A model generated the notes under the pieces. It worked only from the letters and a program-made list of their open reading frames with translations. It had not been told where the DNA came from and ran no database searches. The position numbers were made by a program, and so were the translations under genes. A stretch of 64,000 nucleotides of DNA from Methanoculleus frigidifontis (GTDB taxonomy: Archaea; Halobacteriota; Methanomicrobia; Methanomicrobiales; Methanoculleaceae): the NCBI RefSeq assembly GCF_030464345.1, contig NZ_VCYH01000003.1, positions 186,001 through 250,000 of the forward strand. Reading direction: 5' to 3'. Positions 11,436 to 38,123 of this stretch are shown piece after piece; positions within the stretch are counted from its first letter, which is position 1, and every line of letters starts with the position of its first letter.

Positions 11436-12200
11436 TTATTCGGCGTGTTCATCCAGCGCCTCGATCAGCGTTTTAACGGCCGGGTGCCCGTCCGTCAAAG
11501 CCTGCCCGCCGAGACCTGCTTCAAGGATGCCGGGTTCCTGCGGAATTTCGCAGATTATCCGGGACGGATCCGCAATTCCTTCGCGCATACGGGCAGCCAT
11601 AGCCGTATCAGCCTTGTTCAGCACGTAGTAGAGCGGGACGCCGATATTCCCTGCCATCTCCGCAATCTTTTCCGCGAGCCGTAGCGACTCAAACGAGGGG
11701 TCGAGCACCATGAGAATCACGTCGCCCTCCTGGTCGATCCCGCGGCCGAAGTGCTCGATCCCCGCTTCGGTGTCTGCAATGACGACATCATCGTCACCGA
11801 GGCGAAGACTGCCGAGAAACTGCCTGGCGAGTATTCCCATCGGGCACGCACACCCTTCTCCCGCATCGTGGATCTTGCCGATCGCGGCGAGCCGAACGCC
11901 GTGGTCTTCGGCGACGTAGTCCTTCGGAAGGCCGTCAAGCGTCCATGCCTCCTCTATCAGGTTGACGGATGCAAAATCAGGCATCGCTGCCATGATCTTC
12001 GCTCCCATGGCCTTCTTGCCCCCGAAGTAGTCCATCAGGTCGGGCGGTGCGTTCGTCCCGAGCAGGCGGTGCAGTCCGAGATTTGACTCGTCGGTATCGA
12101 CGACCAGCACGGGGCGGTTTCTCCGTGCATACTCACGTGCGAGCAGGGCGGTGAGCGTGCTCTTCCCGCTGCCTCCTTTTCCACAAATAGCGATCTTCAT
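11436..12200 (-). CDS. CooC-like MinD-family ATPase (metal-insertion accessory protein)
   Basis: A 254-residue SIMIBI ATPase with the deviant Walker A motif GKGGSGKST (residues 7-15), switch DTDESNLGLHRLLG and VIADTEAGIEHF. It has a CxC pair in GEGCACPMG, equivalent to the CxC that binds nickel or zinc at the dimer interface in CooC, the factor that helps load nickel into carbon monoxide dehydrogenase. GGAAGTGA lies eight bases before the ATG. No CODH genes are visible here; instead it follows a binding protein of a metal-type ABC importer, suggesting a link between uptake and insertion. Assignment to CooC rather than a general ParA relative rests on the CxC and overall pattern. Confidence 0.82.
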   Translation of the reverse strand: MKIAICGKGGSGKSTLTALLAREYARRNRPVLVVDTDESNLGLHRLLGTNAPPDLMDYFGGKKAMGAKIMAAMPDFASVNLIEEAWTLDGLPKDYVAEDHGVRLAAIGKIHDAGEGCACPMGILARQFLGSLRLGDDDVVIADTEAGIEHFGRGIDQEGDVILMVLDPSFESLRLAEKIAEMAGNIGVPLYYVLNKADTAMAARMREGIADPSRIICEIPQEPGILEAGLGGQALTDGHPAVKTLIEALDEHAE

Positions 12201-27945: not shown

Positions 27946-28391
27946 CTACAGCATGTGATGGAAGATCAAAGGGAACTTCTCCGGCATCAAACGGATCTTC
28001 GGGGAAGGAGTGTGGGCAACGTCACGAGAGCATGTTCCGGGAGGTCATGATAAAAATGAACTGCTACAACATGCTGGTTACCATGGCGGTCTGAGCAGCT
28101 GCACAACGGTAATACGGGTACTGTTATCCGCTGATGGAATTGTGCAACACAGTAGTGCAACGCCGGAAGTGGACACTTCGATGCCGTAGTATGCCATCCG
28201 TCTGCCCATGCAGGTTTCTCAAACCTGAAGACCACACCCCCGGCGCGATATCCAGGTATACTTCTGCCCCCGGGGTATCGGCACAAACACCATCTGGCGA
28301 GATCTCCTCCGCTAAAAATGTCCATATTCAAGCCTGTTTCGGTTATACATCTCAATACCTTTATATTTCCAGCATTGAAACAGTACTAATT
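27946..28391. other. Intergenic region upstream of htpX
   Basis: 446 bp with no gene I can support. The last 40 bases hold the htpX promoter. The rest contains short unrelated frames and two nearby GTGCAAC motifs (about 28140-28160) of unknown meaning. Confidence 0.4.
28360..28368 (+). promoter_or_regulatory. TATA box of htpX
   Basis: TTTATATTT is centred 28 nt before the htpX ATG at 28392. No ribosome binding site is seen, so the mRNA is probably leaderless. Confidence 0.6.
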
Positions 28392-29276
28392 ATGGAATGG
28401 AAACGTGACTGGGGCCTTACGGGTAGAGTATGGCTGACGATGTTCTTGCTGTTCATCCTCTACCTTGTGCTTATGACAGTGCTGCTGGCATTCGGCGCCG
28501 GTTACTGGCTGATCGTTCTCTTAGCCGTGGGCATGGGATTAGTCCAGTACTTCTTCTCGGATAAGCTGGTGCTCTGGTCGACCGGGGCACGTATCCTCGA
28601 AGATGGCGAGTATCCCGACCTCCACCGGACCGTAGAGAAGCTCTGCAGAGAAGCAGACCTCCCCAAGCCGAGGATTGCGATCATGCAGAGCCCGGTACCG
28701 AACGCGTTTGCTACCGGCAGGAGCCCGAAACATGCAGTCGTTGCCTGCACGGATTCGATCATGCAGCTGCTCAACAAGGATGAGTTAGAAGCAGTCCTTG
28801 CGCACGAGCTCGCCCACGTAAAGAACCGCGATATCCTGACCCTGACCATGGCCAGTTTCATTGCGATGATCACGTCGCTGATCATGCAGAGTTTCTTCTT
28901 CTCTGCATTATTCGGCGGGCATGATAGCGAAGAAGGGAACAGCGGGATGATTGTCTGGATAGTGTCGATCGCTGTCTATGCGATCAGTACGCTGCTCATC
29001 CTTGCACTCTCACGATACCGCGAGTTTGCAGCAGATCGCGGCAGCGCACTCATCACGAAGAATCCGCGAGCACTGATAGCCGCCCTCAACAAAATAAGCG
29101 GACGGATGGATGTGGTACCTGCGCAGTACAAGGCACAGGTCGAGGGAGCGAATGCATTCTTCATTATTCCCGCAGTCTCGAAAAACTCCCTACTGGAGCT
29201 CCTCTCAACCCACCCCCCGCTCGAAAAGCGGATCGCAAACCTTGAACGCGTGGAGGCGGAACTCCGCCGAAAATAA
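28392..29276 (+). CDS. htpX: HtpX-like M48 family membrane zinc metalloprotease
   Basis: A 294-residue protein. Two N-terminal transmembrane helices (residues about 12-55) are followed by the protease domain with the zinc motif HELAH (VLAHELAHVKNRD), a second pair of hydrophobic segments, and the downstream third ligand in SRYREFAADRGSA. It degrades misfolded membrane proteins in the heat-shock response of its family. The ATG at 28392 suits the leaderless promoter. The C-terminal STHPPLEKRIANL is typical. Confidence 0.93.
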   Translation: MEWKRDWGLTGRVWLTMFLLFILYLVLMTVLLAFGAGYWLIVLLAVGMGLVQYFFSDKLVLWSTGARILEDGEYPDLHRTVEKLCREADLPKPRIAIMQSPVPNAFATGRSPKHAVVACTDSIMQLLNKDELEAVLAHELAHVKNRDILTLTMASFIAMITSLIMQSFFFSALFGGHDSEEGNSGMIVWIVSIAVYAISTLLILALSRYREFAADRGSALITKNPRALIAALNKISGRMDVVPAQYKAQVEGANAFFIIPAVSKNSLLELLSTHPPLEKRIANLERVEAELRRK

Positions 29277-29371
29277 CCTCTTTTTGCTGTTCCTGCATTG
29301 TGAATTTTTAAAAAGTGAGCGGTAGTGGGAGAAACGGCGTCCCTTCGAATCTGCCGTTACCACCAGGAGGG

Positions 29372-29392
29372 TATACTTCACGGTGAAGTATA
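29372..29392. promoter_or_regulatory. Perfect 21-bp palindrome, candidate operator
   Basis: Ten-base arms around a single G. It lies about 320 bp before the next gene and 96 bp after htpX. Symmetry and arm length suit a dimeric regulator or a short RNA hairpin. No neighbouring start codon explains it. Confidence 0.5.
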
Positions 29393-29677
29393 TTCTCTGA
29401 CCAAACATGCTCCCTCTTCACCCCGGAACGTCCCGGTGTTTGTTTGCAGGAGTTTCATCCTCAAGGGTGGCGAAGGGAATCGTGAAACCCTCTTTCTGCA
29501 GAGCATCGCTCCAGGTGTGGCACCCAGAAGTCGCAGATCATCGTGCCGGGTCACAGGGGCAACCGCAACGGTGTATCAGTGCGAAGGAATACTCATCTTT
29601 TTGGGAGCCCCTTAAGTCCCAAATCCCTGTTTAACCCCCATAATAACAAGATATCAGGATGAGATCTGAGCAGCAAC

Positions 29678-29687
29678 TTTAAATTTT
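29678..29687 (+). promoter_or_regulatory. TATA box of the CBS/CorC-type gene
   Basis: TTTAAATTTT is centred about 30 nt before the ATG at 29713, with no ribosome binding site, consistent with a leaderless or very short-leader transcript. Confidence 0.55.
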
Positions 29688-29712
29688 AACCGCGAGATAC
29701 TCTATCCGTTAA

Positions 29713-31011
29713 ATGTCGTATATCGTTGAGATCATCATCGTCCTCGTTCTGATCGTGCTGAACGGCATCTTTGCCATGTCAGAATTTGCTATCGTTTCTG
29801 CCAAAAAGACCCGTCTCCAGCAACGGGCAGGCGAAGGAGATACGCGGGCAGCAGCCGCACTTGAACTGATGGATGAACCAACACCGTTTCTCTCGACAAT
29901 ACAGATCGGGATTACCCTTGTAGGTATCTTTGCCGGCGCATTCGGAGGAGCAACGGTAGCAGCAAGCCTCACGGGCTACCTCAATCAATTCCCGGCACTT
30001 GCACCTTACAGCGGTCTCTTGGGCATCGCCCTTGTGGTTCTCGTGATCACCTACCTGACCTTAATCTTCGGAGAACTCGTCCCAAAACGCCTTGCGCTCA
30101 ATAAAGCTGATGAGATTGCCTCCATCGTCGCAAAACCGATGCGGCTCCTTTCTCGCATAGCAGCGCCGCTGGTGATCATTCTTACGTATTCAACCGAAAC
30201 CATTCTCCGGGTCATGCGGGTCAAGGAGTCTGCTGAACCCCCGGTAACAGAAGAGGAGATTAAGATTCTGCTCACGAGAGGTACGGAAGCCGGGATCTTC
30301 GAGAAGGCCGAACTGAGCATGGTCGAAGGTGTGTTCGATCTCGATGACCGCCGTGTCGAATCCCTGATGATACACCGCTCCGATCTAATCGCACTTGATC
30401 TGGATGATTCCGCTGAGGAGAATCTTCGGAAAATGATTGATAGCGGTCGATCAAACTTTCCGGCATTCAAGGGGAACCTGGATACGATTGTTGGCATGGT
30501 CTCTGTAAAGGATGTTCTGGCGAAGATGGTGGACAGCGGCATCCCGGATATCAATGCATCGGTAACAAAACCGCTCTTCGTCCCGGAAGCGATCACAGTC
30601 TTAAAACTCCTCGAATTATTCAAGGAAACCGGCGTGCATATTGCCCTGGTCACGGATGAATACGGGTGCATACAGGGTATCATTTCCCTGCACGATATCC
30701 TTGAAGCGATCGTGGGCGATGTCCGAACTCTTGGCGAGCCGGCGGATATACCGGTTGTCGTGCGGGAGGATGGTTCCTGGCTTATCAACGGGGACGTTCC
30801 TGTTGAGGATCTCAAGGATACCCTGTCCGTGGACTCTTTTCCGGGAGAGGAAGAAGGACACTACCGGACTATTGCCGGGCTGATTATGCTCATCATGCAG
30901 AGAATACCAAAAACGGGTGATCGCATCGAAGCCGATGGATTGCGCTATGAAGTCGTGGATATGGATGGCAGCCGGATCGACAAGGTGCTGGTACGAAGGA
31001 TTAATCAGTGA
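29713..31011 (+). CDS. CNNM/CorC-family membrane protein (DUF21, two CBS, CorC_HlyC)
   Basis: A 432-residue protein of the hemolysin-C/CorC family. An N-terminal DUF21 membrane domain (residues about 1-190, with MSEFAIVSAKKTRL and FGELVPKRLAL) is followed by paired CBS domains (VESLMIHRSDLIALDLDD and HIALVTDEYGCIQGIIS) and a C-terminal CorC_HlyC domain (INGDVPVEDL). Family members act in Mg2+/Co2+ export or resistance. The start is fixed by the promoter spacing. It follows htpX on the same strand but has its own promoter. Confidence 0.92.
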   Translation: MSYIVEIIIVLVLIVLNGIFAMSEFAIVSAKKTRLQQRAGEGDTRAAAALELMDEPTPFLSTIQIGITLVGIFAGAFGGATVAASLTGYLNQFPALAPYSGLLGIALVVLVITYLTLIFGELVPKRLALNKADEIASIVAKPMRLLSRIAAPLVIILTYSTETILRVMRVKESAEPPVTEEEIKILLTRGTEAGIFEKAELSMVEGVFDLDDRRVESLMIHRSDLIALDLDDSAEENLRKMIDSGRSNFPAFKGNLDTIVGMVSVKDVLAKMVDSGIPDINASVTKPLFVPEAITVLKLLELFKETGVHIALVTDEYGCIQGIISLHDILEAIVGDVRTLGEPADIPVVVREDGSWLINGDVPVEDLKDTLSVDSFPGEEEGHYRTIAGLIMLIMQRIPKTGDRIEADGLRYEVVDMDGSRIDKVLVRRINQ

Positions 31012-31632
31012 GCGTTAGAGACGTGATCCGTGCACAGCGGCGGAGATCTCGCGAAGCGGGAAGATACTCGCCGCTGACACCGGAACATCGCGACGGGTCT
31101 GGAGCAGATACGCATCTTAAACAGAAACCGAACGGGAAAAGAAGGGAGGCATGTGAGGCAGACCGGAGTGCAATGAGCGAGAAACGAGCGGAACGCGGAC
31201 GAGTGAACGTGAACGGGTGTTCATCGAACCAGACAAACAAGTCCTCGCTCGTAAAGCCCACGCTGGCTGTGGAGCGGGCTTCGCAGAATAACCGCATCCG
31301 GATCTTACCATCTGCTGCACACACGCTTGCACCGCCGCCCGCATCGCATCAGGCCCCGCGACCGGCTTCCCTCGCTTCGATCGAGCGTCTTTTACGGAGT
31401 TCGGCGACAATGCGCTTGAGGTCTTCGATCGTTGATAAGAACCGGGATATCCGCAGCCGGGGTATCGGCGGGAGCAATCACTCGCACGGTCCGATCTGGC
31501 AGGGGATGTCTTCAGCCGCGAACTTCTATCAGGTCGCCATACTGCACTGATCTTCTGCAAGATCTGAGCAGTTCCATAGGGCATTATGCCGGAAGGTGCG
31601 ATACCGCTCATACGCCGGTCACAAGAGCAGAG
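31012..31632. other. Gene-free, probably eroded region
   Basis: 621 bp. Frames overlap on both strands. On the minus strand a stretch around 31430-31340 reads FLSTIEDLKRIVAELRKRRS followed by a stop, and nearby VCAADGKIRMRLFCEARS in the same direction, which look like pieces of a small decayed gene. No intact start, ribosome site or known family is visible. Confidence 0.4.
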
Positions 31633-32112
31633 TCATCCTGCCTGACCCCGCTTCACGACCATCACCGGCTGTGAGGCGTGCTTGATCACGTAGTCGGAGA
31701 CGGATCCCAGCAGCACCTTCTGGATGTTGCTCTTTCCGTGCGATCCGATGACGATGAGGGAGACGTGTTCTTCATCGGCGATGCTGACGATCTGCTCTCC
31801 GGGCGAACCGACAGGCATTCTGATCGATACCTGCAGTCTCGCCTGTTTGGCCTTCTTCTGGACTGCCCGCATGTTCTCGCCCAGATCTTCTCGAAGCCAC
31901 TTCTGCGGCTTTTTCTCATAGGTGGACACCGATCCGAGGTAGGCGGATCCTCCGCGTGCTATCGTAATAGTGTCCCGCTCGTCAATGACGTGCATGATGA
32001 TAACGTCCATTGTCCCGCAATGACGCAGTCGCGTAACCAGTTCAAATGTTTTTTCTGATAACGCCGAGAAATCCGTCGGAAAGAGAACCCGCTCAAACAA
32101 CGTCTTTGCCAT
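31633..32112 (-). CDS. Universal stress protein, UspA family
   Basis: A 159-residue UspA domain starting MAKTLFERVLFPTDFSALSE, with the C-terminal signature GSHGKSNIQKVLLGSVSDYV. Long-insert UspA proteins of this kind are common in methanogens. It lies between the decayed region and copy 2 of the 637-bp duplication, and is divergent from the remnants beyond. Confidence 0.92.
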   Translation of the reverse strand: MAKTLFERVLFPTDFSALSEKTFELVTRLRHCGTMDVIIMHVIDERDTITIARGGSAYLGSVSTYEKKPQKWLREDLGENMRAVQKKAKQARLQVSIRMPVGSPGEQIVSIADEEHVSLIVIGSHGKSNIQKVLLGSVSDYVIKHASQPVMVVKRGQAG

Positions 32113-32216
32113 CCTACAGTATCCCTCTTACCCCTACTGTATTAAGAGCTGCCCTCGCGTCGGGGAAAGCCGGGTCGCCGGGCAGACCTGCCTCAATCCC
32201 CGGTTATCGGTCTCCC

Positions 32217-32528
32217 TCAAGCAGGGGGCGTCCTTGTGATCCCGGCAGGCTTCTTTGCCTCGACGAAGAACTTCCGCATCCCGCCGATCCGGAACGAGTA
32301 GTCCGGTGCTTTGGTGGACTTCTCCACCTGGACGGTATCCTCGTGGATCACGTCCTTGTAGCGCTCGTCGAGCCCCGAGCGGTTGTTCACGTCCCAGCCA
32401 AGGGCCTCGAAGAAGCGATCGATGAACTCTTTCCTGACCTGGAACTCGTTGTAGGAGGGAGACGTATACTTTGCAGAGTACTGGTCAAACCGCTTGACCA
32501 GATCGACGATCTCGGGCGGGGCGGGCAT
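32217..32528 (-). pseudogene. N-terminal fragment of a restriction-modification-type protein (copy 2)
   Basis: Same start and sequence as the fragment at 26690-27040 (MPAPPEIVDLVKRFDQYS), with Trp in place of Arg at the FEALG-W-DVNNR position, which is the more usual residue. It leaves the shared sequence after FFVEAKKPAG and stops at 32217. It is therefore truncated slightly earlier than copy 1. Confidence 0.72.
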
Positions 32529-32879
32529 GGTGTCACGTGAATATGGAAAACAGCCCGGCAAAAAGGTTAGCATTTATCCCCGCGGGCTGGAGGGGCGGGA
32601 TATGGATTCTGTCGCCTGCCGGAGGGCGCATTAAGCAGACACTGGCTATACCTCTGGCTGCAGCCCTGTCCGGGAGCCGGCGAATGATCGTCTGGAAAGC
32701 CGTCACTGACGCCAAACTCCGGCTCCGGGAGGCCTGCCTCGGTGCACCGGCGGATCATGTCCCGCGTCCCCGTGCCCATCCGCTCGATGTAGCCGGTCAG
32801 GTACATCGGCTCGGCGAGGAGCGGGTTGCCCGGCACCGACCCGTGGGCCTGCCGGAGTTTCTCGAGCGTCAGGGACGGC
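32243..32879. repeat. 637-bp direct duplication, copy 2
   Basis: Second copy of 26755-27391, same orientation. Left of it the sequence reads into the UspA promoter side, and right of it into the 12-bp-repeat region. Neither flank matches copy 1. Confidence 0.93.
32567..32879 (-). pseudogene. C-terminal fragment of a COG2865-type regulator (copy 2)
   Basis: The frame reads SLTLEKLRQAHGSVPGNPLL then YLTGYIERMGTGTRDMIRRC and EPEFGVSDGF, identical to copy 1. Upstream of SLTLE the sequence changes at the duplication boundary (32879), so the ATPase part seen in copy 1 is absent. Confidence 0.65.
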
Positions 32880-32987
32880 AGGGGCGATAGATTGCCTTCC
32901 CGTATCGCAGACCGTGCACCGGCCGAGCTCCACGCGCGCCCGCTCGAAGGTCCGGTGATCGAGCAGCCCGGGCAGCGGCCGGATGCC

Positions 32988-33046
32988 GGTTGCAACATGG
33001 TTGTACATAGGGTTGCAAAGGGGGTTGCAAACATGGTTGCAAACAC
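32988..33046. repeat. 12-bp tandem repeat array A (GGTTGCAA core), five units
   Basis: Units start at 32988, 32999, 33011, 33023 and 33035: GGTTGCAACAT, GGTTGTACATAG, GGTTGCAAAGGG, GGTTGCAAACAT and GGTTGCAAACAC. Read on the minus strand they encode a (V/L)-C-N-x tetrapeptide repeat in one frame. Confidence 0.85.
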
Positions 33047-33320
33047 TTTTCGCGATCGAACTCTTCGATACGTCAGGGAATTTCAGATCTCTCGATACAT
33101 TTCCATTTTCGATTTTTTCGTTTGCAACCGATCCGAAAACGCACGGTTCACTCCGATTGTGCACGCGATCCGGGTGCCCTTCCGGTGGAGTCGGATCGGG
33201 TGAACTGTGCGATCCGGAAAAAGTTGCAAACGACCTCGGATCGCCGCGACCAATCTCTTCTGGATCTTCCCCATTTTCCGAATAATCGCAGGAATGCCGC
33301 GAACACTCCTCCTCGATCTC

Positions 33321-33377
33321 TTTGCAACCACTATTGCAACCCCGTTTGCAACCCTGTTTGCAACCGGTGTTGCAGCC
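33321..33377. repeat. 12-bp tandem repeat array B (TTGCAACC core), five units, inverted relative to A
   Basis: Units start at 33321, 33333, 33345, 33357 and 33369: TTTGCAACCACT, ATTGCAACCCCG, TTTGCAACCCTG, TTTGCAACCGGT and GTTGCAGCC. The unit is the reverse complement of array A's. On the minus strand it encodes G-C-(K/N)-x repeats in one frame and V-A-N-x repeats in another. Confidence 0.85.
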
Positions 33378-33725
33378 ATCGTCCGGCGGCGGCGGGGAGG
33401 AGGACTCCCCCGCACCTTCATCCTCGTCCTCCACCAGACCGCGAGCTCTGCCATCCACTCCCGGTAGCGCTCGATGTCGAACTGGAAGTTCTCGAGCAGG
33501 AACCCGGGCGGGTTGCCCTGGCGGAGGATCGCCCCCCGCCCGGCAGCGGTGCTCATCTTCGGGCGGAAGACGAGGAGGGGCGGGGCGGCCCTCCTTCCTT
33601 TTCGGTACCAATGTCCGCTTCTCCCGGAGGCGGTAGCTGCCCCATAGGTAAGCGATCAGGGAACGGGGGTATATGAACGTGCGGTGGGGGATTGAACGTG
33701 AAAAGGGGTTGAGACCGCCAGGTAA

Positions 33726-33905
33726 TTACTGGCGTCTGATTTTCAGATATGCCCACTCTACCGCTGCAATGAACTGCTGATAGTTCGCCTCATCTGCCCG
33801 GACTTTGAGCGGGGTTCTGGGGAGACGGTGCATTCCATCTTCGGGTATCTGGACTCCGGGGATTGCGTTGAGCATACGGAAGATATCTCGAAGTGCATCC
33901 TCACC
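33726..33905 (-). pseudogene. C-terminal remnant of an unidentified protein
   Basis: The frame reads LRDIFRMLNAIPGVQIPEDG, then MHRLPRTPLKVRADEANYQQ and FIAAVEWAYLKIRRQ to a TAA at 33726-33728. It is protein-like but has no start; upstream the frame runs into the tRNA terminator and tRNA gene. It is probably a gene tail left beside the tRNA, as often happens at integration sites. Family unknown. Confidence 0.5.
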
Positions 33906-33946
33906 CGCGAATGCAGGGCATTCGTGTAGTCCGCGAGAGTGTAGAC

Positions 33947-33957
33947 TCAAAAAAACG
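33947..33957 (-). terminator. Poly-T terminator of tRNA-Met
   Basis: On the minus strand a run of seven T (33949-33955), preceded by AAAAAAGCG, lies about 40 nt after the tRNA 3' end. Confidence 0.55.
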
Positions 33958-33993
33958 CTTTTTTCGAAATTGGGACGCGGAGAACTGAAATTA

Positions 33994-34104
33994 TGCTGCG
34001 GGTGGGATCCGAACCCACGATCTCCAGATGTCCCAGGTCTGGACGCTCCGTTTCTGCTCAAAACCCTATGAGTCTGGCGCCCTTACCAACTAGGCCACCG
34101 CAGC
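33994..34104 (-). tRNA. tRNA-Met (CAT, elongator) with a 37-nt intron
   Basis: The gene folds fully: acceptor GCTGCGG/CCGCAGC with discriminator A, D-stem GCCT/GGGC, anticodon stem CCAGA/TCTGG with loop CTCATA-A, variable AGATC, and T-arm GTGGG-TTCGGAT-CCCAC. The 37-nt intron (34030-34066) interrupts between positions 37 and 38, the canonical archaeal site. No CCA is encoded. The anticodon CAT with a non-GGG/CCC anticodon stem favours elongator tRNA-Met over the initiator; tRNA-Ile2 with a modified C cannot be fully excluded. Confidence 0.93.
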
Positions 34105-34175
34105 ACAGAAAGTGCAGTATAACAATGCTGCCCGGACAGATAAAGGTTCTGATTTTCCGGGCAGAAAATGGGGTG

Positions 34176-35651
34176 TTATCTTCTGGCGTTTCGGACGTAC
34201 ACGTTCACGGCCGCCGCGATGGCCGCGACCTCCTTGCCCTGCCGGAGCGATGCCGCGAGCGTCTGCATCCGTGTCTCCTCTTCGAGAAGGTAGCGCCGCA
34301 GGCTTTTGACGATATGCTCCTCCTGCAGAAAGTGCGTATGCGTATCGCCGGCGACGAAGTGGCGGTTGTTCATGATGGCGTGGTGCAGGGGCAGCGTCGT
34401 CCTGACTCCCAGGATGACGTACTCGTAGATGGCGCGGCGCATCCGCTCGATCGCCTCCTGGCGATTCGAACCCCAGGCGCAGAGCTTCGAGATCATCGAG
34501 TCGTAGTGGGCGGGGATGGTGTAGCCCATGTGGATGCCGGAATCGACCCGGATGCCCGGGCCGCCCGGGGAGCGGTAGCGGACGATCTTGCCCGGATCGG
34601 CGGTGAAGTTGTTCAGCGGGTCCTCCGCATTGATCCGGCATTCGATCGCGTGGCCGCGGATGCTGATATCCTCCTGGCCGAAGGCCAGGGGTTCGCCAGC
34701 GGCGATGGCGATCTGCTGTTTGACGAGATCGATCCCGGTGATGAACTCGGTGATGGTGTGCTCCACCTGCAGCCGGGTGTTCATCTCCATGAAGTAGTAC
34801 TCCCCGTTCGCGTACAGGAACTCGACCGTCCCGGCGTTTGCGTAGCCGGCCGTCTTCGCCACCGTCACCGCCGAGTCCGCCATCCGCTCGCGGAGCTGCG
34901 GCGTCATAATCGGGCAGGGCGCCTCTTCGACGAGCTTCTGGTGGCGCCGCTGGATGGAGCACTCCCGGTCGTAGAGGTGCACGGTCCGCCCGTCCGCATC
35001 GGCGAGGATCTGGAACTCGATGTGGCGCGGTTTCTGCAGGTACTTCTCGATGAAGATCGTCGCATCGCCGAAGGCCGACTCCGCGATCCGCATACCTTTG
35101 TCGATCGCCTCCTCGAGTCCCGCCTCGTCCTCGACGATCTGCATCCCGATACCGCCGCCGCCGGCGCTCGCCTTCACGATCACGGGGTAGCCGATCTCAG
35201 CGGCGATCTCTTTCGCGTCGTCGACGCAGGTGACGCCGCCCTCGGTGCCCGGCAGCACCGGGACGCCGGCTTCGCGCATCATCCGTTTACAGCCGATCTT
35301 CGAGCCCATCGCATGGATCGTCTCTGCCGACGGGCCGATGAAGATGATGCCCTCCTTCTCGCAGAGATCCGCAAACTCACTGTTCTCGGCGAGGAACCCG
35401 TAGCCGGGGTGGATGGCTTCTGCACCCGATTTCGCGGCGATGTCGCAGATCCGCGCCATATTGAGGTAGCTCTGCGAGGGGTGGGCGTCGCCGACACAGA
35501 ACCCTTCGTCTGCGTATTTGACGTGAAGCGCGTTCTTGTCCGGTTTTGAGTAGATCGCCACCGTCTCGATGCCGATCTCCCTGCAGGCCCGCATCACCCG
35601 GATCGCGATCTCGCCGCGGTTTGCGATCAGAATCTTATCGAAGTATTTCAT
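34176..35651 (-). CDS. pycA: Pyruvate carboxylase subunit A (biotin carboxylase)
   Basis: A 491-residue biotin carboxylase starting [23 protein letters not shown]-grasp features include [12 protein letters not shown] (glycine-rich loop), [15 protein letters not shown] and [11 protein letters not shown]. It carboxylates the biotin carried by PycB using bicarbonate and ATP, supplying oxaloacetate for the incomplete TCA pathway of methanogens. The C-terminal tail is slightly longer than bacterial AccC, as in other archaeal PycA. It lies 24 bp downstream of pycB in the same operon. Confidence 0.95.
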
Positions 35652-35675
35652 CTCGGATCGAGTCTCCGCATACTG

Positions 35676-37418
35676 TCACTCCACGATCATCAGGACGTCG
35701 CCGTTCTGCACGACGTCACCGGTGTCGACGAAGATATCGACGACCTTGCCGTCACGCGGGCTGTGGATGGGGTTCTCCATCTTCATCGCCTCGAGGATGA
35801 TCAGCGTCTCGCCCTTCTTCACCGCGGCGCCCCGCTGCACCGGCACCTTCAGCACCATGCCCTGCATGTTGCTCTTCACGCCGCCGGCGACGTCGCCCCG
35901 CGGGATCTTCTCCTTTGCCACGATGGCGGGCACGCTCTCGACCGCACTCCCCTCGACCGAGACGATCCGCACCGCGAAGATCTCGCCGTCGACCTCAACC
36001 TCCATGGCCGTCGGGAACTCCGTGCCCGCCGCCGGTTCGGGAACCTTCTTCGGGATCTCCTCGCGTTTTCTCTCCCCCTTCAGGAACGACGGCGCAATGC
36101 TCGGGTAGAGGATGTAGGTGAGCACGTCCTCCTCTTTGCGGATAAGCCCGGCATCCTCTGCCTGCTGCTTCATCTTCTGGTACATCGGTTCGAGGAGGTT
36201 GGCGGGTCTGACCGTTACCGGCTCATCGTCGCCGATGATGTGCCTCTGTATCGCCGGGTCGATCTGCGCCGGGGGCTTCCCGTAGAGGCCGCGGACGTAA
36301 TCCTTCACCTCGGTCGTGACGTTCTTGTAGCGCTCGCCGAGGAGGACGTTGAGCACCGCCTGGGTGCCGACGATCTGGCTCGTCGGGGTGACGAGCGGGG
36401 GGTAGCCGAGGTCTTCGCGCACCCGGGGAACCTCCGCCAGCACCTCCTCGTGGCGGTCGAGGGCGTCCTGCTCTTTGAGCTGGGAGATGAGGTTTGAGAT
36501 CATGCCGCCCGGCAGCTGGTAGATCAGCACGTCCGAGTCGACGCGTTCCGATATCGGGTCGACGAGCGGACCGTACTTCTCGCGGAGTTCCAGGCAGATG
36601 TTGCGCACCCTGCGGAGGGCGACGAGGTCGATCTCGGTGTCGCGGGGCGAGCCCCGGAGCGCCGCGACCACGCTCTCGGTCGGGGGCTGCGACGTGCCGA
36701 GAGCGAAGGGCGACATCGCGGTATCGAGGATATCGACGCCGGCGCCGACCGCCGCCTGGTAACTTAAGGAAGCCACCCCGCTCGTCGAATGCGAGTGGAG
36801 GCAGACTTTGACGTCCATCTCCTCCTTGATGCCGGAGATGAGGTCGTGCGCCGCCTCGGGCATGATCAGCCCGGCCATGTCCTTGATGCAGATCGAGTCG
36901 CAGTCCAGAGCGTAGAGCTCGCGAGCCATGGCGATGAACGACTCCGTGCTGTGAACCGGGCTCGTGGTATAAGAGATCGCACCCTGGAGGTGGGAACCGG
37001 TGTTCTTCACCTCCTTCATCGCTTTCTGCATATTCCTGATATCGTTGAGTGCGTCGAAGATGCGGAAGATCGCCACCCCGTTCTCGGCGGCGGCGGCGAC
37101 GAACCGCTCGACGACGTCGTCGGGGTAGTGGCGGTACCCGACAAGGTTCTGGCCCCGCAGAAGCATCTGGATGGGAGTGTTTACAAGTTCCGATTTGAGT
37201 TTTTGCAGCCGCTCCCAGGGATCTTCGTTGAGGAATCTGATGCAGCTGTCAAATGTCGCACCCCCCCATGCTTCCACGGAGAAAAAGCCCACGGTATCGA
37301 TTGCTCGCGCAAGAGGGAGCATATCTTCGGTGCGCAGCCGTGTCGCGATCAGCGACTGGTGCGCGTCCCGGAGCGTGGTATCGGTTATAAGGATCCTATC
37401 TGAACTGGCAGCACACAT
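35676..37418 (-). CDS. pycB: Pyruvate carboxylase subunit B (carboxyltransferase with biotin carrier)
   Basis: A 580-residue protein. The N-terminal carboxyltransferase TIM barrel begins ITDTTLRDAHQSLIATR, with metal ligands in DTTLRD and HSHSTSG. A conserved linker follows, then the C-terminal biotinyl domain with the attachment lysine in EAMKMENP at about residue 544. It transfers CO2 from carboxybiotin to pyruvate. GAGGTGT lies eight bases before the ATG. It sits 51 bp after the biotin ECF transporter genes and is probably the main or only biotin protein of the cell. Confidence 0.95.
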   Translation of the reverse strand: MCAASSDRILITDTTLRDAHQSLIATRLRTEDMLPLARAIDTVGFFSVEAWGGATFDSCIRFLNEDPWERLQKLKSELVNTPIQMLLRGQNLVGYRHYPDDVVERFVAAAAENGVAIFRIFDALNDIRNMQKAMKEVKNTGSHLQGAISYTTSPVHSTESFIAMARELYALDCDSICIKDMAGLIMPEAAHDLISGIKEEMDVKVCLHSHSTSGVASLSYQAAVGAGVDILDTAMSPFALGTSQPPTESVVAALRGSPRDTEIDLVALRRVRNICLELREKYGPLVDPISERVDSDVLIYQLPGGMISNLISQLKEQDALDRHEEVLAEVPRVREDLGYPPLVTPTSQIVGTQAVLNVLLGERYKNVTTEVKDYVRGLYGKPPAQIDPAIQRHIIGDDEPVTVRPANLLEPMYQKMKQQAEDAGLIRKEEDVLTYILYPSIAPSFLKGERKREEIPKKVPEPAAGTEFPTAMEVEVDGEIFAVRIVSVEGSAVESVPAIVAKEKIPRGDVAGGVKSNMQGMVLKVPVQRGAAVKKGETLIILEAMKMENPIHSPRDGKVVDIFVDTGDVVQNGDVLMIVE

Positions 37419-37469
37419 CGAAAGTACACCTCGGGGCTGAGGAATGAATCAGTAAAGCCTCTCAAAAAT

Positions 37470-38123
37470 TCACTGTACAACTATAAAAACATCACGAACA
37501 GGAATGTATGCGAAAAATGCGATTATTAGAGCCAGGATTGCCGCCGCTGTGTCGTACCGTCCCGTCGTAAATGTCGGACAGATATGCCCTCCGTGGCGGT
37601 ATCCCCTGACATCCAGGAGTTTTGCCTGATCCCGTGTGCGCCGGAGCTGGTTGACGACGATGCTCGTGGCCAGAGGCACGATTGTCCGGATGGACGGGTG
37701 CATACCCTTGATCGCCATCGCACGCCGGATCTGGGCAACGTCCCGTTCGATGGTGTGCAGGTTCTGCAGCCCCATCTCCGCGACGAGCCCGATCTCGAAC
37801 CCGGTGCGGGTGCCGAGCAGCCAGACCGCGCCGTCGAGGAGTTCGCCGTCCTGCCGGTCCGCATATGCCCAGGCGGCGATGACCAGAATCACCGACATCC
37901 GGATGAGGTAGGAGAGGCCGTCGCCGCCGGAGACGGCGGAGAGGGCGGCAGTGGCAGCGATCATGGCGATCACCCCTGCAAGCGCTTTCGGGTGCGGAAG
38001 CGCCCGCCACCGGGGGGTGAAGAGCGCCCACCAGGCAAGTGCCGCCACTGCTCCGGCCACGCTGACGAATGCGGCGACGGAGAGCGCCACGGTGGCGAGG
38101 ATCCTCAGTCGCGGATCCTGCAT
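37470..38123 (-). CDS. ECF transporter T component (biotin uptake)
   Basis: A CbiQ/EcfT-like membrane protein of 217 residues with about five hydrophobic segments and the two Ala-Arg-Gly-type coupling motifs (RAMAIKG and LDVRGYR) that contact the ATPases. GGGAGG precedes the ATG at 38123, which overlaps the end of the ATPase gene by 19 bp. With bioY and the two ATPases it completes an energy-coupling-factor biotin importer (BioN equivalent). Confidence 0.9.
   Translation of the reverse strand: MQDPRLRILATVALSVAAFVSVAGAVAALAWWALFTPRWRALPHPKALAGVIAMIAATAALSAVSGGDGLSYLIRMSVILVIAAWAYADRQDGELLDGAVWLLGTRTGFEIGLVAEMGLQNLHTIERDVAQIRRAMAIKGMHPSIRTIVPLATSIVVNQLRRTRDQAKLLDVRGYRHGGHICPTFTTGRYDTAAAILALIIAFFAYIPVRDVFIVVQ

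Follow-up and report, generated by a model that had tools for sequence, protein, structure and literature searches.

A probable replication origin embedded in its own initiator gene in Methanomicrobiales, with a dead copy in Methanoculleus frigidifontis

Inverted repeat arrays in a dead rep gene

The window considered here, a 64-kb stretch of the Methanoculleus frigidifontis genome, contains two inverted arrays of short repeats, both situated in the remnant of a gene for a replication protein of primase-helicase type, termed Rep. This remnant (32892-33434, minus strand) is the 3' part of a dead gene and corresponds to residues 749-929 of the Rep protein P0001 (protein match, E 2e-85, 75%). It includes the site-bearing region and the start of a zinc ribbon, and its DNA is 81-85% identical to that of three intact paralogues.

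The initial annotation described five 12-bp units facing five units in inverted order, and both the window coordinates and an inverted-repeat analysis agree with this layout. Array A, the right site cluster, occupies 32988-33044 on the plus strand, with units starting at 32988, 32999, 33011, 33023 and 33035. Array B, the left cluster of the GGTTGCAAACnn type, has the opposite orientation and occupies 33320-33377 on the minus strand, with units ending at 33377, 33365, 33353, 33341 and 33329. The period is 12, and the best pair of arms is 84% complementary, with 277 nt between the arms. The isolated copies reported between the arrays were also found, namely an inner right site (GGTTGCAAAC) at 33120-33129 on the minus strand and an inner left site (AGTTGCAAAC) at 33222-33231 on the plus strand, opposite in orientation to the left cluster. 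Both single copies are contained in a 34-bp imperfect inverted repeat that the initial annotation does not mention. The adenine- and thymine-rich (A+T-rich) stretch between the inner right site and the right cluster (33046-33118) is a candidate unwinding element, judging from its sequence and its homology with the guanine-plus-cytosine (GC) minimum of intact genes. With at most one mismatch, GGTTGCAAAC occurs 12 times in the 64 kb against 2.03 expected, a count reached in none of 100 shuffles, and 8 of these 12 copies fall in 33011-33365. The tetrapeptides noted earlier are present on the coding (minus) strand, where array B reads GCNT-GCKQ-GCKR-GCNS-GCK and array A reads VCNH-VCNP-LCNP-MYNH.

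A 681-bp query around the arrays retrieves five other large matches from this genome, with identities of 76-85%. Three of them lie inside intact genes (L009:4043-6922 and L010:3288-6167, each of 959 aa, and L011:5730-8594, of 954 aa), and in all three the arrays are located within one open frame. The DNA similarity among these genes spans approximately 3.3-3.6 kb and stops some 32 bp past the stop codon. Comparison with the intact paralogues identifies two further pieces of the window copy from protein matches, both on the minus strand: residues 326-361 at 33534-33641 and, in a different frame, residues 730-765 at 33392-33490. The window remnant thus consists of residues 326-361, 730-765 and 749-929, and the arrays therefore belong to the 3' part of the dead gene. 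Missing are residues 1-325 and an internal segment of about 1.06 kb, whose deletion junction is placed at 33484-33490 by split DNA matches. The copy is frameshifted; its sites are kept.

Predicted architecture of Rep and the site sets of its relatives

Intact Rep (approximately 955 aa) is predicted to consist of a primase, an MCM-like helicase, a winged helix, a disordered stretch and a zinc ribbon. No Pfam family scores above its cut-off in Rep, and no solved structure matches it by sequence up to E 1. In the structure model of the whole protein (predicted local distance difference test score, pLDDT, 74.1), residues 353-648 resemble an MCM-type AAA+ fold, the best match being archaeal MCM 6mii_A (Z 22.0, root mean square deviation 3.4, 271 aligned residues). 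The domain at about 649-700 may be a winged helix, as suggested by a weak MarR_2 match (E 0.022), the predicted order of helices and the C-terminal position after the MCM core; the winged-helix-like part of the model includes helix 681-689. Residues 754-903 have pLDDT below 50, and the C-terminal part carries four invariant cysteines, C921, C924, C941 and C944. The N-terminal domain modelled alone has pLDDT 90.7. Its top Foldseek match is the primase RepB', followed by PrimPol folds, and the first 29 rows are all primases, PrimPols or LigD-type polymerase domains. D99, D101 and H147 of this domain would be its catalytic residues.

Repeats were sought in the DNA encoding the disordered stretch of 65 different genes in which both anchors are present. 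Since an exact 8-mer test is too strict for degenerate site types, position weight matrix motifs were used in addition, excluding L059, L061 and L070, whose regions are too long. Forty-eight genes have a strong motif, with 9-17 sites each of 8-9 bp, arranged around an A+T-rich stretch. In L071, for example, TGCTGTAAA occurs at -54 -62 -73 -84 +95, -182, +260, -334 +345 +356 +386, and TGCTGAAAA in L077 and TGCGGAAGG in L109 occupy nearly the same places. The site sequence is TGCTGCCA in L037 and GGTTGCAAA in L016. When codons were shuffled synonymously so that the protein was preserved, the observed count of the top 8-mer was reached in 0/500 shuffles for 33 of the 65 genes and in at most 5/500 for 42. 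Control windows in gene bodies reached the level of at most 1/100 in 6 of 257 cases, whereas 43 of the 65 site regions did so under the same test. The sites are also concentrated in this region: among 37 genes whose top 8-mer occurs at least five times, its density is 13.96/kb in the region and 0.033/kb over the remainder of the locus. The GC minimum of the site region, taken over 70 bp, lies below the gene-body minimum in 64 of 65 genes, and in all 48 genes with a strong motif it falls between the first and the last site. In L009, GC content drops to 41%, compared with mostly 60-75% elsewhere in the gene.

Two side observations concern the same region. In L059 and L061 a 153-bp block seems to be tandemly amplified, with 14 and 17 copies of TGACAGCA, and the two proteins differ in length by 51 aa; the origin copy number may thus vary between strains. 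Further short palindromes were seen by eye in the A+T-rich core of L109 and L071, at about 140-175 of the site region (ACACACATATGTGTGT; TGTACA and TGTAC).

Each gene has its own site sequence, and all the copies within a gene agree more closely than coding for the protein would demand. A 7-mer chosen in the first 150 nt is predictive for the right part of its own gene but not for that of other genes, with 125 copies found against a permutation mean of 17.1 (standard deviation 7.4, largest value 46 in 2000 permutations; 42 of 62 genes usable). The intact paralogue L011 illustrates this concerted change. Several copies in both of its arrays read GTTGTAAAC, and the underlying base change is silent in one array (TGC to TGT, Cys, with GCK kept), whereas in the other, on the opposite strand, it turns VCN into VYN.

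The relation between protein and site was assessed in 43 genes: after the site-bearing stretch had been cut out, 784 protein columns were ranked by their mutual information with the sixth site base. Six genes of the 'SN' recognition-helix type, in which the site frame is uncertain, and motifs scoring below 115 were left out, and L055 was assigned base T by hand from its sister. In P0001 numbering, the two highest columns are Q683 (rank 1, corrected value 0.739) and H682 (rank 2, 0.591), the next reaching 0.445, and these are adjacent residues of the predicted winged-helix recognition helix. The pair HQ goes with C in 13 of 14 genes, YQ with C in 9 of 9, SS with C in 4 of 4, MG with T in 5 of 5 and QK with T in 3 of 3. 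The site base has changed at least 11 times on the tree. In a test on independent pairs, an average of 5.7 of 6 agree, the grouping HQ/YQ/SS having been chosen after the data were seen. A hold-out set started from 69 new genes, of which 40 are not identical to the first set, 23 of these have both anchors, and 9 lie within the score and frame limits with a coded pair. The base was predicted correctly in 8 of these 9 genes, and in 12 of 15 without the limits (table read by eye). Most likely, the Rep product would itself read the sites of its gene through the winged helix.

Interpretation as an origin and its alternatives

We consider it probable that the arrays are Rep-binding iterons of a replication origin embedded in its own initiator gene, and that the window copy is a dead remnant of such a gene. 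The sites, their common specificity, the protein-DNA covariation, the predicted architecture and the genomic context are established computationally; binding, unwinding, priming and origin activity are what we infer from them. We propose that the winged helix of Rep recognizes the 8-9 bp site, and that the two site clusters and the inner single sites, lying in linker-coding DNA, enclose the A+T-rich stretch. Rep would load onto the clusters via its winged helix, the MCM-like ring would unwind the A+T-rich stretch, and the primase domain would prime new strands, so that the excised element replicates. Each lineage would have altered the recognition residues and all of its sites together.

The initial annotation had offered iteron-like sites of a former mobile replicon as one of two readings. 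In substance this reading is supported by the presence of sites on both strands, the specificity shared within each gene, the covariation with the recognition helix, the A+T-rich stretch, and the integrase and attachment-type repeats seen in relatives. Its accompanying rule, that copies always lying in intact genes would argue against iterons, does not hold, because with an origin inside the initiator gene the iterons would normally be situated within an intact gene.

Several observations weigh against an in-gene origin read by Rep. The recognition code is incomplete, as QR occurs with either T or A, T is found in one HQ gene, and the held-out gene L159 (YQ) was predicted wrongly. In the synonymous shuffle test 23 of 65 genes exceed 5/500, and several genes (e.g., L025, L042, L060, L074, L079, L088 and L096) have no repeated 8-mer in the site region, although some genes of this kind do have a degenerate motif. 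The match of the N-terminal domain to a primase fold is only modest (best E 1.2e-3, RepB'), an integrase is found nearby in only 15 of 50 loci, and the more distant Reps of plasmids pMTBMA4 and pMTB1 show no in-gene arrays in the same test.

The alternative that survives best is that Rep binds the sites for autoregulation, partition or packaging and not for the initiation of replication. The DNA-level evidence is all of the binding-site kind, none of it of initiation, and two small genes, orfA and orfB, lie ahead of rep in 35 and 38 of the 50 loci. Conversely, the sites are located more than 2 kb downstream of the gene start and occur no more often than by chance in the remainder of the locus, an A+T-rich stretch lies between the clusters, and Rep has predicted helicase and primase domains. 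We regard a role other than initiation as unlikely.

It is less likely still that the repeats belong to the protein, the Cys-rich tetrapeptides forming a linker that binds metal or is flexible, while unequal crossing over produced the DNA repeats as a by-product. In its favor, the window type has a 12-bp period that stays in frame, Cys is a recurrent residue of GCKx and VCNx, and the region is predicted to be disordered. However, the sites with a strong motif occupy both strands in 48 of 48 genes and all three frames in 47 of 48, and thus no repeated peptide accounts for them. Other lineages have a spacing of 8-11 bp and other peptides (FTA, SAEN, PAEG), the signal is lost in the protein-preserving shuffles, and the change in L011 keeps the residue in one array while replacing it in the other.

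The other suggestion of the initial annotation, that the arrays are variable linkers of two decayed COG2865 proteins, was rejected and has practically no chance of being correct: a COG2865 remnant does adjoin the arrays, but only as a neighbor, whereas both arrays lie in one replication-type pseudogene, and the Rep frame encloses them in relatives as well as in the three intact paralogues of this genome. COG2865-type proteins with in-frame tetrapeptide repeats do exist (L013:6639-7040 and L009:9457-9984, with ARVTARVT and SGKTSGK, by eye); the background to the suggestion was thus sound, though not applicable to these arrays.

Mobile elements, solo remnants and known systems

Rep relatives occur in 89 of 150 related genomes and in 80 contigs titled as Methanomicrobiales members or only as 'Euryarchaeota archaeon'. 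A draw of 392 genomes of the phylum contains 78 that match Rep, including 22 outside Methanomicrobiales in which the match covers the primase or helicase part only. The peptide patterns used retrieved no relative from IMG/VR, and two phage records match in the primase part only; a reading of the element as a virus was rejected on these grounds.

Near the arrays of the window lie a COG2865-type remnant (HATPase_c_4, 32708-32881, minus strand, Pfam 1.2e-9), outside the arrays, and a remnant of a type I restriction HsdR N-terminus (32349-32453, minus strand, HSDR_N 3.4e-8). COG2865 genes also adjoin intact rep relatives, and the two remnants are probably former cargo of the same dead element as the window rep. 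The 64-kb window contains no tRNA, and no integrase was recognized by eye among the frames of 28000-38000. In the 50 relative loci, a tyrosine integrase, an Orc1/Cdc6 gene and a COG2865 gene are found near rep in 15, 16 and 11 cases, respectively. L046 is an integrated element of approximately 10.6 kb between the end of a tRNA-Leu and a 29-bp copy of it (27/29 identical; repeats at 1114-1142 and 11679-11707), and carries an integrase (1075-2361), rep and COG2865. A single-gene transposon was rejected, since the integrase, tRNA and cargo of the relatives speak for larger elements. The Orc1/Cdc6-type genes (L054:4332-5498, L056:6873-7997 and 14 others) mostly occur in loci other than those with an integrase, perhaps marking two element classes. 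A protein of about 168 aa starting with MADFVQTTVNRTAVRDLAVPIAN (L054:1597-2103 and 15 other loci, 16/50), often found with Orc1/Cdc6, has no Pfam or PHROG match.

The window copy is close to the state of a second remnant, G000:C4:202883-203329 (L012:5913-6307), which retains residues 759-908 only and has two in-frame stops. This remnant holds nine sites within one mismatch of GGTTGCAAA at the expected places and a tenth just outside. Among 20 orphan stretches from relatives, 7 carry arrays above the null (0/60 draws). The orphan fragments favor the 3' end: among the matches listed, 23 of 27 are centered beyond residue 600 (p 4.6e-7), and 15 of 19 (p 2.8e-4) when pieces consisting of the zinc ribbon only, which may belong to other proteins, are set aside. 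This count was read by hand in genomes of at most 60 contigs, and two broken full-length genes were left out. L016, a live gene, was compared with the remnants that share its site type (the window copy, L012 and L209): divergence among them is 3-7% at the sites and 23-31% elsewhere. Selection on the sites after gene death is not demonstrable from this comparison, because the divergence may predate gene death and live genes are also mostly less divergent at their sites. Solo origins could be decoys kept by the host, which titrate Rep from related invading elements, or misdirect it, and so confer origin-based immunity or incompatibility in archaea. We consider such a function improbable, yet conceivable, because ectopic lambda origins arrest lambda (PMC4488673).

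The significance of the system lies in some 60 initiator genes, each of which encodes the binding protein and also contains its sites, so that sequence alone yields matched pairs. These pairs offer a ready winged-helix recognition code and allow the diversification of replication specificity to be tested directly. A likely replication system can also be named for widespread, apparently undescribed integrated elements of Methanomicrobiales, and the small Rep-origin cassette could become a vector. More generally, a coding sequence can hold a second, DNA-level message, placed here in a disordered protein stretch. In the literature searched, mostly without subscription papers and without bioRxiv preprints, no in-gene origin in Methanomicrobiales came up, and no archaeal fusion of primase and MCM whose genes carry some 60 diversified site sets with a readable code.

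Parts of the arrangement are known already, since lambdoid phages have an initiator-embedded origin, and SaPI and SCC elements have an initiator helicase with iterons. The plasmid Reps of pMTBMA4 and pMTB1 (Methanothermobacter type) show homology to part of the region comprising helicase and winged helix (about 23% over residues 373-704), and no match to the primase part was reported. Geminivirus Rep is of the HUH rolling-circle type and unrelated to the Rep described here. Together with its iterons it can be likened to the present protein and sites (PMC12548392), but these iterons are located upstream of the gene. ORF904 of pRN1 likewise combines a primase, a helicase and a winged helix in one archaeal replication protein (PMC4234260); however, its helicase belongs to superfamily 3 instead of being MCM-like, and its origin is a stem-loop downstream of the gene, without iterons. 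In SaPI Rep and SCCmec Cch2, an initiator helicase reads iterons with its C-terminal domain (PMC7581432). In these systems the origin is placed downstream of the helicase gene or operon, whereas here it would lie inside the gene, the top 8-mer being at chance level elsewhere in the locus, and Rep here has a predicted primase fused to the helicase.

Lambda O is not known to be a primase or a helicase, and Phage_rep_O is not among the Pfam matches of P0001 and P0002 up to E 1. The layout of the lambda origin is nevertheless similar, with initiator-bound iterons and an A+T-rich tract in the middle of gene O in lambdoid phages (PMC7466680, PMC6022878). Lambda has 4-6 iterons, compared with 9-17 sites here, clustered on both strands, and the Rep system is archaeal with many more site types. 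The two arrangements appear to resemble each other in the way they would work, by analogy and not by homology.
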